From NCBI GenBank assembly GCA_031269465.1, contig JAISZB010000216.1:1-64000 (forward strand): a stretch of DNA of 64,000 nucleotides. The letters are read 5' to 3'. Under the pieces are notes generated by a model, which saw nothing but the letters and a program-made list of their open reading frames with translations, searched no databases and was not told the DNA's origin. Below, piece by piece: positions 1-64,000 of the stretch (the stretch's first letter is position 1; each line of letters opens with the position of its first letter). The position numbers and the translations under genes are program-made. The DNA comes from Clostridiales bacterium (lineage in GTDB: Bacteria; Bacillota; Clostridia; Lachnospirales; WQUN01).

Positions 1-217
1 GCCCTTCGCCAATGCTGTTCCAAGGTTTTGTATGCTTATAGCACCATCCCTTCCCCTAAGGACTGTTCAGCCACAGGCCGTAGAATCCGGAGCTGGAGCA
101 AACGCTCCGGAGTACCTATGTATTCTTGGATAACGTAGTCAGTTAAGACTTAGGCTAGTCAATCAGGACTTGCTAATGCAAGCCCCTAGCTTTTAGCTAT
201 GGGGTGATTGACGAGTA
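1..217 (+). mobile_element. Right end of an IS200/IS605-type (TnpB) element, remnant
   Basis: The segment AAGCCCCTAGC...GCTATGGGG at about 182-207 forms a GC-rich hairpin followed by TGATTGAC. This layout is typical of the right end (and guide-RNA tail) of IS200/IS605 or IS1341-type elements. The open frame from base 2 to about 130 (RTVQPQAVESGAGANAPEYL) could be the very end of a TnpB protein, but I cannot confirm that by family motifs because the zinc finger and RuvC parts would lie outside the window. Assignment rests mostly on the hairpin. Confidence 0.45.
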
Positions 218-15009: not shown

Positions 15010-15304
15010 TAATAATGACAACACTGTGATAAGGAATAGTAAGCTTTTAAAGGATTTCAGAGAGCCGTTGGCTGATGCGAAACGGCATCCAAAGAAAGCT
15101 GAACTCACCTTGGAGTGGCTGACTGAACAAGATCGACTTATTTAGAGCCTCGATCTAGTAGGTTGCGCCGGGAGCCCGCCGTTACAAGGGCGGGATATTC
15201 GCGTCAAGCGAGCATCCGCAGAGTGTATCCCCCAATGGGGATAAAATGGAGTGGTACCGCGAAAATCAGCCTTTCGTCTCTTTATGAGACGAAAGGCTTT
15301 TTGT
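15010..15304 (+). promoter_or_regulatory. T-box riboswitch, probable leucine specifier (CUC)
   Basis: The T-box antiterminator sequence GGAGTGGTACCGCG is at 15248-15261, followed by a terminator hairpin. Stem I features GATAAGGAATAGTAA (about 15028) and a candidate specifier loop GAACTCACC (15101-15109), where CTC at 15104-15106 is a leucine codon. The leader would sense uncharged tRNA-Leu and allow transcription of leuA when leucine is short. Leucine assignment agrees with the downstream gene. Confidence 0.88.
15267..15304 (+). terminator. T-box terminator hairpin
   Basis: AGCCTTTCGTCTC pairs with GAGACGAAAGGCT, then TTTT. Alternative structure to the antiterminator containing the T-box sequence. 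Confidence 0.85.
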
Positions 15305-18198: not shown

Positions 18199-18298
18199 TA
18201 TATGCTGATTTGCAGTCGAATGCATCTATTTTGGAGCATGATTATCCAAGACGATGCACTGTCATGCAAAAAAAGGATTTCATAAGCAAATCAGTATA
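18199..18298. repeat. PAL-1 copy, first of a tandem cluster
   Basis: TATATGCTGATTTGCAGTCG start and CATAAGCAAATCAGTATA end, with ATTTTGGAGCATGATTATCC inside. Confidence 0.85.
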
Positions 18299-18470
18299 TT
18301 TTCAGATAAATGCGCCTGCTTTGGAGCTTGGCTATACCTATGCCGATTTTTCATTCAATGTTTATGGAGCTCGATTATCCTTTGAGCGCTGCGATATGCC
18401 GATATCGACATATCGCGCCCACTGTAAAATCAAGTTCCAAAAAAGGCAATCTTCTATGAAAATCAGTATA
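18299..18470. repeat. PAL-1 copies, nested pair
   Basis: A half copy (TTTGGAGCTTGGCTATACC) runs into a complete one from about 18340 (GCCGATTTTTCATT) through GCCGATATCGACATATCGC to GAAAATCAGTATA. Confidence 0.75.
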
Positions 18471-18660
18471 TTTGAAGCCAAATGCAGAGATTTTGAGGCT
18501 TGCAAGGTGAGAAATGCCAATACCGGCATTACGCACTGCCTCTGTATAATTAATCTCCAAAATAGGTGCTTTCATGCAAATCAGCATATCTATAGAGGCC
18601 GCTGTACAGCAATGCTCCAAAACAGGAAATTTCATATGCTAGTCAGCAAGATATGCTGAA
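18471..18660. repeat. PAL-1 copy and partial copy
   Basis: One copy to 18588 (GAGAAATGCCAATACCGGCA; end TGCAAATCAGCATA), then a partial end (CTCCAAAACAGGAAATTTCA) to 18660, just before the tmcAL stop codon. Confidence 0.75.
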
Positions 18661-52038: not shown

Positions 52039-52170
52039 TATACTGATTTTCATAGAAAATTGCCTTTTTTGGAGCTTGATTATACAGCGTGTGCGATTGA
52101 TATCGGCATTTCGCACCACTCAATGTACATTCAAGCTCCAAAAAAGGAACATTTGATGAAAATCTGCATA
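52039..52170. repeat. PAL-1 copy (near consensus)
   Basis: TATACTGATTTTCATAGAAA start, TTGGAGCTTGATTATACAGC, GCGATTGATATCGGCATTTC, CAAGCTCCAAAAAAGGAACA, AAATCTGCATA end. Confidence 0.95.
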
Positions 52171-52207
52171 GCAGCGACCTTGGCATGAGTTTCTCAATAG
52201 CCGATGA

Positions 52208-52339
52208 TATAGTGATTTGCATATGAAGCCCCTGTTTTGGAGCTTGATTATACAGCAAGTGCGATTGATATCGGCATTTCGCACCGCTCAATGGATAATC
52301 AAGCTTAAAAATAGGGGCATTTGACTGCAAATCGGCATA
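52208..52339. repeat. PAL-1 copy (near consensus)
   Basis: TATAGTGATTTGCATATGAA start, GCGATTGATATCGGCATTTC core, CATTTGACTGCAAATCGGCA end. It lies 38 bases from the previous copy. Confidence 0.95.
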
Positions 52340-59500: not shown

Positions 59501-60002
59501 TATGCCCGATAAAGAAGACGACGCTCGCAACCATAGCGAACGGGTTTTTCAGCCACACAGATACGCAGAGGCAATAAAGCGGCACAGGCGAGAACTATGA
59601 TTAAGCCTTTGGAGAAGCCCAAAAAGCAACAAACCCAGCAGACGCAATACTCAGCAAGAAGCATTACAGCAGCAATAAATGCCGCGCCCTTGAAATTCGG
59701 CTTGTTAAAGCCGCTGACAAAGGCAACGGAAACGCCGCCCTCCGACTTCTCGTGAAAACTGCGGGTATAATCCTTGCGGATTACGAGTATCAGCAACGCC
59801 ACGGTCAGACTGACGCCGACCATTTCCAGTACGCCAAGCAGCGGCGCTGCGGGCGCGTTATCAGCGAGAGGATTGACTTGCGGCGGCATCAGCATATACG
59901 GCAAATACGGAAGTTCTTGCAAGCACCCGCCGTAAAACGGAGGCAAAGGAAAAGCGAGCAAGTATAACGCGAACTCGCTTTTCCGCTTTATTCTCCTCCG
60001 CA
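59455..60002 (-). pseudogene. Truncated membrane protein downstream of merR
   Basis: A continuous frame runs from inside the end of the MerR gene to 59455. Three hydrophobic segments: GVLEMVGVSLTVALLILVIR, GAAFIAAVMLLAEYCVCWVC, and GLIIVLACAALLPLRI. Its RBS is poor and its C-terminus ends among remnants, so I treat it as a fragment, perhaps of an exporter controlled by the MerR protein. Family unknown. Confidence 0.4.
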
Positions 60003-60749
60003 ATGTATCTTCACCGCGTCGCGCAGGAACACAGCGCATCCGGGCGCGATTTTGTCGTAGTAAGCCATGAAGCGTGGGTCATCGACGTACATCTGCGCCA
60101 CACCGAGATGGGCTTCCTTGGTGTAATTGTCCCAATAGAAACAGAGCCAGCGTTTGTGCAGCTCTGCGACTTTCTGCGCGAGTCCGCTTGCCGGATCGCC
60201 TTGCTCAAACGCCGCTTTAAGCGTGTCATTCAGTTCAGCCGCGAGCCGCTCCATTTCGGCGTATTGCTCTTTGGTCGCGCCTTTGAGCTTGGCGTTGGAG
60301 AGATTCACCATGTCATCGCCGTATTTGGCTCGAATTTCTTCGCCATACTGCTTTTCGTTGTCGTCTATGAGCTTCTGCTTAAAGCCCACGAATTTTTCTT
60401 CGTCTGTCATATTGAGTTCCCCTTTCATTGAGCGAATGCTCTTTTCCACATTGGCAATCAGCCTGTCAAGCTGCTCCCGGCGTGATTTGAGCGCTGCCAG
60501 GTGGCTTTCAAGAGCCTGCCGCCCGTCAAAACTATTGCTTGCCAATATCCTGCCAATCTCAGCGAGTTCCACGCCTAACTCGCGGTAAAAAAGGATCTGT
60601 TGCAAGCGGTCAACCTCAGTTTCGCCGTAAATGCGATAGCCGTTGCTGCGGATTACCTTGGGTTTGAGCAACCCGCACTCGTCGTAATAGCGGAGCGTTC
60701 GGGCGCTGACACCCGCGAGCTTCGCCAGTTTGTTTATTGTGTACTCCAT
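59988..60749 (-). CDS. MerR-family regulator with TipAS-type effector domain
   Basis: 253 residues. N-terminal MerR winged helix-turn-helix: YTINKLAKLAGVSARTLRYY, DECGLLKPKVIRSNGYRIYG, then a dimerisation coiled coil (ALKSRREQLDRLIANVEKSI, about 85-105). The C-terminal half (EQYGEEIRAKYGD; YAEMERLAAELNDTLKAAFE; LCFYWDNYTKEAHLGVAQMY) is a TipAS domain, which binds drug-like peptides in known members. GGAGGCGCGCCTA precedes the ATG. Promoter with 19-base spacing just upstream, so probably autoregulated. Confidence 0.92.
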   Translation of the reverse strand: MEYTINKLAKLAGVSARTLRYYDECGLLKPKVIRSNGYRIYGETEVDRLQQILFYRELGVELAEIGRILASNSFDGRQALESHLAALKSRREQLDRLIANVEKSIRSMKGELNMTDEEKFVGFKQKLIDDNEKQYGEEIRAKYGDDMVNLSNAKLKGATKEQYAEMERLAAELNDTLKAAFEQGDPASGLAQKVAELHKRWLCFYWDNYTKEAHLGVAQMYVDDPRFMAYYDKIAPGCAVFLRDAVKIHCGGE

Positions 60750-61338: not shown

Positions 61339-61982
61339 ATGGACGATGAACGGATTTTAGGTTTGTTCTGGCTGCGGTCGGATGACGCTTTGACTGCTGT
61401 GGCAGAGAGATTCGGCGCGTACTGCCGCAAAATCGCCGTAAATATACTGCTTTTCATATAAAATAATCTTTTTTGGAGCTTGATTATACAGGCTTCAATG
61501 GATAATCAAGCTCCAAAAAAGAAACATTTGATGAAAAGCGGTATATCTTGCGTGACGACGGCGACAGCGACGAGTGCGTGAACGAGACATGGCTTAGGGC
61601 TTGGAACTCTATCCCACCTGCCCGTCCGTCACGGCTTGACGCATTCCTCGGCAAGATAACGCGAAACATCGCGCTGAACCGCTATGAGGCGGCGCATACG
61701 GCAAAGCGTGGCGGCGGAGCTGTGGAAATCGCCCTTGACGAGCTTGCCGCCATACCTGTGCCGGAATCCGCCGACGAGGGTGAAATCACGAGGGTGATAA
61801 ATTCGTTTCTGCTCGCTGAGCCTGCTGAACAAGCCGACATATTCGTCAAGCGCTACTTCTACCTCCGGAGCGTCAAGGAAATCGCCGCAGAGTACAGCTA
61901 CAAGGAAAGCAAAGTCGCTTCCACCCTGTTTCGTATGCGCACCAGGCTCAAAGCTCAGCTTGAAAGCGAGGGTCTAATGTGA
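61339..61982 (+). pseudogene. ECF-type RNA polymerase sigma factor, split by PAL-1
   Basis: The first 35 codons (61339-61443) encode MDDERILGLFWLRSDDALTA through YCRKIAVN; the reading frame then hits TAA inside a PAL-1 copy. After the repeat, LRDDGDSDECVNETWLRAWN (region 2) and SVKEIAAEYSYKESKVASTL (region 4 helix-turn-helix) continue to a normal stop. Deleting 101 bp (61443-61543) rejoins AAT-ATC-TTG-CGT-GAC in one frame of about 180 residues, normal for this sigma class. The stop overlaps the start of the next gene, the usual sigma/anti-sigma arrangement. Translation could restart at TTG 61548, but region 2 would be incomplete. Confidence 0.93.
61443..61545. repeat. PAL-1 copy inserted in the sigma gene, flanked by TA
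   Basis: 99-bp element TACTGCTTTTCATATAAAAT ... AAGCGGTA (61445-61543) between TA at 61443-61444 and TA at 61544-61545. Inner arms TTTTTTGGAGCTTGATTAT and mirror ATAATCAAGCTCCAAAAAA. Same short form (central part deleted) as the copy at 35902-35999. Confidence 0.95.
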
Positions 61983-63427
61983 AAAACGATAAGATATTAA
62001 AAGCGATGAGCGGTATTGATTATGAACTGGTCAGCCGCGCCGCCGCTCCGGTAAAGAAAGAAAACGAAAAGCGCGTTAACTTCGCGCTGTGGCTCAAATG
62101 GGCTATGCCTGTGGCGGCTTGTCTGGTACTTGCCATTGGCCTGTTCTCCATGCACGGCGTGTTGTTCCCGTCAATAAGCGGTACGGGCGGATCAAACAAC
62201 GTCCCACAAGCCGCCGCAGGTGGTGGTTCAGAAAATGGCGGCAGCGTTGACAGTGCATTGGCTGGAGGTATTGAAGGCGCAAGCCCGGCGGTTGCGCCTC
62301 CTGCCTCTAAACCACAACCTGTTTTGCGGATTGGAAAAACAACTTTTATGAGGCCTTTTTCATCTGATGTTATGAACGGCTTTGAGATGAGTCTGACGGA
62401 AGAACAGATAAAGCAGATAGTGCCGGGACTTAGCTTGACACTCGGCGGCAGCGGTCAATACCAGATGGATGGCTCGTTATATAGGCTGGCGCTCATTGAA
62501 ACCGAAAAGCCTGCAAGGACTGATTTGCCTGCTTATCATGGCGAATACTACTACCGTACAGCCATTGAAATTTCTCCATTAGGCGATGTCCGCTCTGATA
62601 GTGTCCTCGAAGGGAATGGTTCCAAAGTCACCAATATGAACGGCATAGAAGTATCGTCTTTCAAGTTTATTGGTAACGATAAGAACATTGTCTATTACCA
62701 GTCCGATTTCAAAATCGTAGGTATTGGCTACAGGGTCTCCATATACGACAGCGCCAACAAGATAAATCAAGGCGATGAAAAAGGCGCGGTACGGCTTACT
62801 GAGATTGTTTCCGGCATAATCAACAGCAGATCAGCCGATTTGTCAGACGTGCTGACCGCTGACTATCCTGATTTACGCTCCGACGAATTGACGCTGGAAC
62901 AGGCTTATGAGGAATCAGACTTCGGCGCGTATATCCCTAATGGCATACCGAACGAGTTTGAGTTTTCAACCAGCTATCGCGTTAACAAACCAAACCAGAA
63001 CGATTTGTCCGTCCATTGGGCAACGGGCTGCAAGTATATTGAGATTACCGCAGGCGATGCGGCACTGAACGGTGATTTGTACGACGACGAAGTATACGGC
63101 TACAGCGGCACATTGGTTCACGCGAATGAAACCGAGAAATATGATTTATCGCTGTATCCTGTTCCGAGAGCCGACTCCGTGCCGGATGAACTCCGTCTGG
63201 TCGTTGACAGTCCTGTATTCTATGCGGACGAGATGACGATTGATGTTATCGGAAAGCGTATCTACACGCTTGGTGAAACAGGGGAGAATGAAATTAACGT
63301 TCCCAGAGCTGATTTCAGCGTACTGTATGGCGATGTACTTGTCAATTTCATGTCCAAAGGCTTATCCGCCGAACAGATTTGGACGATGGTTCAGGAAGTC
63401 GGAAACAACAATGGAGGTGTCAGATGA
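61979..63427 (+). CDS. Anti-sigma-factor-like membrane protein
   Basis: 482 residues from GTG 61979, overlapping the sigma gene stop. A short cytoplasmic part (residues 1-40), one transmembrane segment (LKWAMPVAACLVLAIGLFSM, about 38-57), a Gly/Ser/Pro-rich linker, and a large external region (about 120-480) without a family I can name. Position and layout fit a sigma-regulator anchored in the membrane and sensing the outside. With the sigma gene broken it has no obvious partner. The stop overlaps the next ATG (ATGA). Confidence 0.8.
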   Translation: MKNDKILKAMSGIDYELVSRAAAPVKKENEKRVNFALWLKWAMPVAACLVLAIGLFSMHGVLFPSISGTGGSNNVPQAAAGGGSENGGSVDSALAGGIEGASPAVAPPASKPQPVLRIGKTTFMRPFSSDVMNGFEMSLTEEQIKQIVPGLSLTLGGSGQYQMDGSLYRLALIETEKPARTDLPAYHGEYYYRTAIEISPLGDVRSDSVLEGNGSKVTNMNGIEVSSFKFIGNDKNIVYYQSDFKIVGIGYRVSIYDSANKINQGDEKGAVRLTEIVSGIINSRSADLSDVLTADYPDLRSDELTLEQAYEESDFGAYIPNGIPNEFEFSTSYRVNKPNQNDLSVHWATGCKYIEITAGDAALNGDLYDDEVYGYSGTLVHANETEKYDLSLYPVPRADSVPDELRLVVDSPVFYADEMTIDVIGKRIYTLGETGENEINVPRADFSVLYGDVLVNFMSKGLSAEQIWTMVQEVGNNNGGVR

Positions 63428-64000
63428 ATAGCAGAATCACCAGAATCATCTCAGCTGTAATCGCTGTAATAACAACCGCAGCCATCTTAGCGGGCTGTGC
63501 GGGAAACGAGGTGGTTAATACGAAAGCAGTCCGCCAGGTCAAAACAGAAGCACACGCTATGCAAGTGAACTATGAGGCCATGCAAGCCCCGATAAACGAG
63601 GCGGACTTCGCCTTCAACCTTGGCAACAAGCTGATAGCCGATGTCAGAGACACCGACAACTTTGTATGCTCGCCGCTCTCGGTGTGGCTGCCCCTTGCAG
63701 CGCTGGTGAATGCCACGGACGCTGAGCATAAGCCCGCTTTGCTTGACGCTCTCGGCGCTGCGGGCGTGACTGAGCAGCAGATAAACGACTATTCGCAAAT
63801 GCTCCTGTACCGCGTAACCGGCGAGGGCAACAAGAAATACGAAAAGAATTATATCAGCCCGCTGAAAATCGCCAACGCCCTGTTTGTGAGCCAAAACGAA
63901 ACCATCCGGCAGTCTTTCGCCCAGACCTTTGCGGATAATTACCTCGGCGCTATGTTCAATGTGGACTTCTCGTCCAAGCAAGCCGTGGACGCGATAAACG
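63424..64000 (+). CDS. Serpin-family protease inhibitor, lipoprotein (truncated by window end)
   Basis: 192 residues visible; continues beyond the window. GGAGGTGTC precedes the ATG. Signal peptide with lipobox ILAGC (Cys about 25). Serpin fold signatures: NEADFAFNLGNKLIADVRD, NFVCSPLSVWLPLAALVNAT (helix B/FSPxSIxxAL motif), ALGAAGVTEQQIN, ISPLKIANALFVSQNETIRQ, FAQTFADNYLGAMFNVDFSS and QAVDAIN. Serpins are suicide inhibitors of serine or cysteine proteases; a surface lipoprotein form could protect the cell envelope. The reactive-centre loop is outside the window. Confidence 0.88.
   Translation, partial: MNSRITRIISAVIAVITTAAILAGCAGNEVVNTKAVRQVKTEAHAMQVNYEAMQAPINEADFAFNLGNKLIADVRDTDNFVCSPLSVWLPLAALVNATDAEHKPALLDALGAAGVTEQQINDYSQMLLYRVTGEGNKKYEKNYISPLKIANALFVSQNETIRQSFAQTFADNYLGAMFNVDFSSKQAVDAIN

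Follow-up and report, generated by a model that had tools for sequence, protein, structure and literature searches.

Among described bacterial MITEs, RUP is a palindromic element of 107 bp with 108-110 copies in pneumococcus, ends like those of IS630-Spn1 and TA targets, and it sometimes lies within genes (PMC2229807, PMC3049150). Correia elements of Neisseria (NEMIS/CREE) are hairpin MITEs with TA ends that fall into two classes, of 107 bp and 155 bp, set apart by an internal segment (PMC2229807), and more than 120 have been counted (PMC10969869). ERIC is a palindromic MITE of ~127 bp with TA ends (PMC2229807, PMC3049150), which reaches as many as 711 copies in Photorhabdus (PMC10969869). Overall, prokaryotic MITE families were given 20 to 711 copies per genome in a 2024 review (PMC10969869).

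Here, we analysed a window of 64,000 nucleotides, the whole stretch examined, from a 7.7-Mb, Oscillospiraceae-type genome of a gut-type bacterium, which is assembled in 391 contigs and holds many repeats. In this window, a 99-bp element interrupts the gene of an ECF sigma factor (61339-61982). The locus is a clean in-sequence record of transposition from an uncultured clostridial lineage, with the target, its duplication, the element ends and a broken regulatory gene all preserved. The element belongs to the IS630-type MITEs, like RUP and Correia elements: it is shorter than ~500 bp, has no transposase gene, ends in terminal inverted repeats with a target-site duplication backed by empty sites, and belongs to a dispersed multicopy family with unrelated flanks. 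As in IS630-type (RUP-like) MITEs, the target is TA, and the host genome holds an IS630-family element with matching ends.

By analogy, RUP is the closest known system in structure and proposed mechanism. Both are short palindromes with IS630-like ends, TA insertion and many copies, some of them genic; this likeness is drawn from descriptions. RUP has 108-110 copies, compared to ~2,500 by extrapolation here when fragments are counted in, and its partner IS is common whereas that of the 99-bp family is mostly degraded. Correia elements likewise have two size classes that differ by an internal segment (107/155 bp against 99/132 bp), but their reported terminal inverted repeats are 24 bp compared to 13-16 bp here, and this copy of the element differs in having no detected promoter-like site. 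ERIC is by its description also palindromic with TA ends, but it comes from another host group and has fewer reported copies. Autonomous IS630/Tc1-mariner elements have the TA target, the TA duplication and the DDE_3 domain also seen in the IS630-type group of the host genome, whereas the 99-bp element is noncoding. A REP/RAYT-type palindrome (IS200/IS605-like, with no target-site duplication) was ruled out by the clear TA duplication.

The split sigma factor gene

A sequence-only reading of the window had claimed that the sigma frame stops inside a repeat and resumes after it, and that removal of the repeat plus one TA restores the protein. Its coordinates, the ends TACTGC/GCGGTA and its arithmetic all proved correct on direct reading (Table 1). 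The frame starts with ATG at 61339 and runs for 40 codons before it meets a TAA (61459-61461) within the element. When 101 bp were taken out (the 99-bp element and one TA), a joined frame of 180 aa was obtained, MDDERILG...VNILRDDGDSDECVNETWLRAWN...SEGLM*, which ends at the TGA at 61980-61982. The joined protein matched Sigma70_r2 in Pfam (E = 2.8e-8), with weaker matches to Sigma70_ECF and region 4. With its frame shifted and codon 41 turned into a stop, the disrupted gene is very probably inactive, a loss of sigma function that is predicted from the reading frame.

Table 1. Positions of the features at the interrupted sigma factor gene, in window coordinates
Feature	Position	Strand	Basis or remark
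Sigma gene, 5' part	61339..61444	+	Last two bases are the left duplicated TA; joined translation, ungapped homologues
Left TA of the target-site duplication	61443..61444	.	Direct reading; sister-copy empty-site test
99-bp MITE, ends TACTGC/GCGGTA	61445..61543	+	TA flanks, restored frame, ~40 near-identical genome copies
Left terminal inverted repeat TACTGCTTTTCAT	61445..61457	+	Same sequence as one end of the IS630-type element (1,444 bp) on G000:C254
Inner hairpin left arm TCTTTTTTGGAGCTTGATTATACA	61467..61490	+	Inverted-repeat search; DNA fold
Inner hairpin right arm	61499..61522	-	Inverted-repeat search; DNA fold
Right terminal inverted repeat TACCGCTTTTCAT	61531..61543	-	One mismatch compared to the left end
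Right TA of the target-site duplication (extra copy)	61544..61545	.	Direct reading; sister-copy empty-site test
Sigma gene, 3' part	61546..61982	+	Frame differs from that of the 5' part; reading, Pfam
Downstream ORF	61979..63427	+	Overlaps the sigma stop codon; one membrane-like segment

The alignment to uninterrupted homologues, which the same reading had put forward as a check, agreed with it. Five intact homologues with 64-72% identity were used: two from named Oscillospiraceae MAGs (L031 from Glo450_bin21 and L032 from Ct408_bin61), two from genomes of the same family (G030 and G024), and C38, a paralogue from the host genome itself (70%). The joined protein aligned to all five with zero gaps over the junction, as in GAYCRKIAVNILRDDGDSDECVNET compared to GGYCRRIAVNILRNREDADECVNET of L032. 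At the DNA level, the junction is AAC AT(A/T) (C/T)TG in L031, L032 and C38, and AAT ATC TTG in the joined window; a match to the inner arm of the element was absent from the L031 and L032 loci. Since the homologues are free of gaps at the junction, the interrupted state is derived and the join is exact. An error of assembly or binning, by which a repeat was joined into an intact gene, might be suspected in a repeat-rich assembly of 391 contigs. We give this next to no credence, since the element is short (99 bp), its flanks join perfectly with a TA duplication, an outcome not expected from misassembly, and both halves of the sigma gene are free of further lesions.

The ORF downstream of the split gene has counterparts with 31.7-33% identity in L035/L034 (tblastn), which adjoin the sigma gene there, its place beside sigma being conserved in G030 and G024; no Pfam match was found for it. 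We infer that it may encode an anti-sigma factor or another sigma partner. Elsewhere around the locus, a MerR regulator with a TipAS domain lies upstream of the split gene (59988-60749, minus strand), and at 63424 on the plus strand begins a gene for a serpin, a protease inhibitor whose N-terminus is lipoprotein-like (63424-63999); the gene continues past the window end.

The element and its TA target

The element reads TACTGCTTTTCATATAAAATAATC...GATGAAAAGCGGTA. Its ends form an inverted repeat of 16 bp (94%, with the TA flanks counted in) and its inner arms one of 24 bp (96%), and its single-strand DNA fold has a z of -11.8 compared to shuffled sequences. Matches to the inner arm were found 25 times within the window, compared to 0.06 expected. 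Neither the 99-bp form nor a longer form of ~132 bp contains a coding frame of note or a transposase gene. An Rfam scan of the window returned only T-box and HEARO RNA and nothing at the element. The T-box leader is located at 15017-15284 (plus strand, 129 bits).

The sequence-only reading had also named TA as the duplicated target. We compared TIR-paired insertions with paralogous element-free sites in the same genome (at least 80% identity), which yielded nine cases. When exactly one TA was removed, the junction was free of gaps in eight of these nine, some of which are insertions into repeats of the same family, so that not all are independent loci in unique sequence. In contrast, a gap-free junction was obtained in 1/8 when both TAs were kept, in 0/8 when both were removed and in 0/8 when four bases were removed. 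For example, the insertion at L117:19230-19359 is identical to L188 at every base around the junction, and the one at L199:379-477 matches L188 with 90% identity over 300 bp. These results show that a single TA is duplicated upon insertion, as had been claimed. The sequence around the TA has a palindromic preference compared to local TA sites, with A at -5 in 51% against a background of 25% (p = 8e-25) and G at -4 in 35% against 19% (p = 4e-9). The target in the sigma gene, AAATATCT, conforms to this preference.

A presumed IS630-type partner in the same genome

A genome search for an IS630-type transposase with matching ends had been suggested as a further check, and it returned a group with DDE_3 domains (PF13358, E = 6e-21 in the C347 copy) whose copies are nearly all broken. 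The C254 copy is complete as an element of 1,444 bp with TA on both flanks and the ends TACTGCTTTTCAGACATAA... and TACTGCTTTTCATTGGTAA...; given as TACTGCTTTTCAG/TACTGCTTTTCAT, the second end equals bases 1-13 of the MITE, and TACTGCTTTTCA(T/G) is present at both ends. The MITE end sequence is borne by the C254, C127 and C233 copies, and it is preceded by TA in C254 and C127. The genome thus holds a DDE_3 element whose 12-13 terminal bp agree with those of the MITE and which is flanked by TA, in keeping with the IS630/Tc1-mariner-type affinity proposed from the window. The similarity between the MITE and the IS is restricted to these 12-13 terminal bases. As a separate matter, an origin of the MITE from the 1,444-bp IS by plain loss of its interior was rejected, with matches beyond the terminal bases at chance level.

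The N-terminal half of the transposase has 28 matching stretches in the genome, most of them with stops or frameshifts, and no intact transposase with matching ends was found in the assembly. In the two best copies, C254 and C127 (L082 and L178), the reading frame shifts after GRKRHD(V/A)PGP, and a TAA follows further downstream; because both carry these lesions, the copy from which they descend would already have been defective, unless their translation relies on an unproven frameshift. The C127 and C233 copies run off contig ends inside the IS630-type element, where an intact repeated copy would drop from the assembly. As nearly all known copies are broken and these two end inside the element, the source of the autonomous transposase is either unassembled or extinct. 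Relatives of the group in other genomes of the order are distant (47% at best).

We are highly confident that the locus is best explained by a non-autonomous MITE of the IS630/Tc1-mariner type, which would have been mobilised in trans into a TA of the sigma gene with duplication of that TA. Mobilisation in trans is probable from the matching termini, and the enzyme would presumably be the transposase of an IS630-type element with the same terminus, TACTGCTTTTCAT. By a presumed cut-and-paste chemistry, the MITE would leave its donor site and enter the TA within AAATATCT, repair would duplicate the target TA, and the insertion would shift the sigma frame and bring in the stop at codon 41. Alternatively, a different transposase, from another IS630 group or from an unrelated IS with convergent ends, may have moved the MITE in place of the C254/C127 group. 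The short stretch of common terminal sequence and the almost entirely broken state of the C254/C127 group would agree with this, and one IS630-type gene, C49, is open (362 aa, DDE_3 and HTH_32). However, no matching ends were present in the 2.6 kb examined around C49, the MITE end sequence sits on copies of the C254 group, with TA preceding two of them, and an intact copy of that group may merely be unassembled at the contig ends where C127 and C233 stop. We therefore regard another transposase as unlikely, and retain the C254/C127 group as the presumed source of mobilisation.

Copy number, two forms and distribution

Of the genomic places that were scored, 40 are near-full copies of the 99-bp form (95-100% identity), with a mutual identity of ~96% (95.9%). 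All 30 copies that were inspected together with their flanks share the same ends, lie between two TAs and are surrounded by DNA that is unrelated from copy to copy, and 57 of the 63 copies of 120-137 bp are TA-flanked on both sides. In a sample of 1.31 Mb, which was not selected for hits and includes the window, the end sequence occurred as an inverted pair with a spacing of 40-500 bp in 74 cases, 61 of them with TA on both sides; the reversed-sequence control gave 0. A search of the same sample with a profile made from these elements returned 434 non-overlapping copies or fragments, and 0 in the shuffled control. This density of ~330/Mb extrapolates to ~2,540 (roughly 2,500) per 7.7 Mb, or 3.6% of bases, with old and partial copies included. 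The 99-bp class amounts to ~40 copies both by direct search and by extrapolation of the 7 found in the sample. The element type is a known one, and its copy number is unusual, above any that we found reported for a bacterial MITE; a literature search of incomplete coverage returned no report of a bacterial MITE family in the thousands.

The 63 longer copies have 73% mutual identity compared to 95.9% for the 99-bp copies. Apart from an additional palindrome in the middle (around GTGCGAAATGCCGATATCGGCATTTCGCAC, a net difference of 33 bp), their consensus is the same as that of the 99-bp copies, and folded as RNA the ~132-bp form pairs into a hairpin over nearly its whole length (-73.9 kcal/mol). 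Most simply, the 99-bp form would be a shortened version of the older ~132-bp form that lost the central palindrome and then spread recently to ~40 sites. Variants at the two ends co-vary over the copies (pair 6-127 is C-G in 30, A-T in 26 and mixed in 7), as would follow from recognition of both ends by a single protein.

The family was absent from all 60 relatives searched, namely the genus-mate G001 (8.8 Mb) and 59 others, and a single 27-base match, in G051, was found among 391 other genomes of the order. As far as the searched collections show, the expansion appears private to the host lineage. The 132-bp consensus had no match among plasmids, and two core patterns of the family had no exact match among viral contigs; spread on plasmids or viruses was rejected on these empty searches. 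The two genomes of the genus (G000, the host, and G001) are 7.7-8.8 Mb, compared to 1.7-3.7 Mb in 36 other genomes of the family. It is conceivable, although we would sooner doubt it than assert it, that the expansion of this single family (~2,500 copies or fragments, ~3.6% of the bases) is a record for a bacterium and helped to enlarge the genomes of the genus, with the founding transposase now largely extinct in the host genome. Tolerance of a high load of small transposons is a question mostly posed in plants. The host genome is a natural setting for how bacteria tolerate such heavy loads, confine them to intergenic DNA and lose them.

After joining, 12% of the family insertions lie within frames of 150 aa or more, compared to 63% of random TA sites. 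The insertions thus avoid genes, and therefore the one in a regulatory gene belongs to a minority. A structural RNA or a regulatory palindrome (REP/BOX-like) with a host function, lying in the sigma gene by chance, would likewise be found mostly outside long ORFs, and the very stable hairpin and some compensated changes from arm to arm in old copies (100 cells compared to 58 expected on shuffling) point the same way. However, selection against gene disruption predicts the scarcity in long ORFs equally well, the TA duplications and empty sites make transposition evident, the element has no Rfam family, this copy has no promoter-like or terminator-like site, and the genus-mate lacks the family. 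A host-functional palindrome is thus very improbable compared to the mobile IS630-type MITE.

Neighbouring MITE copies are in places clustered in twos and threes, some of them truncated (window 18205-18584 and 52041-52335). At L170:14104-14235, a 132-bp MITE lies inside a repeat family that also matches the HEARO region of the window (115-212), so that repeats are nested there. HEARO RNAs (RF02033) occur at 2-212 of the window (minus strand) and in at least 46 places of the host genome; because many of these are located less than 1 kb from a contig end, this suggests that the HEARO host elements break the assembly.
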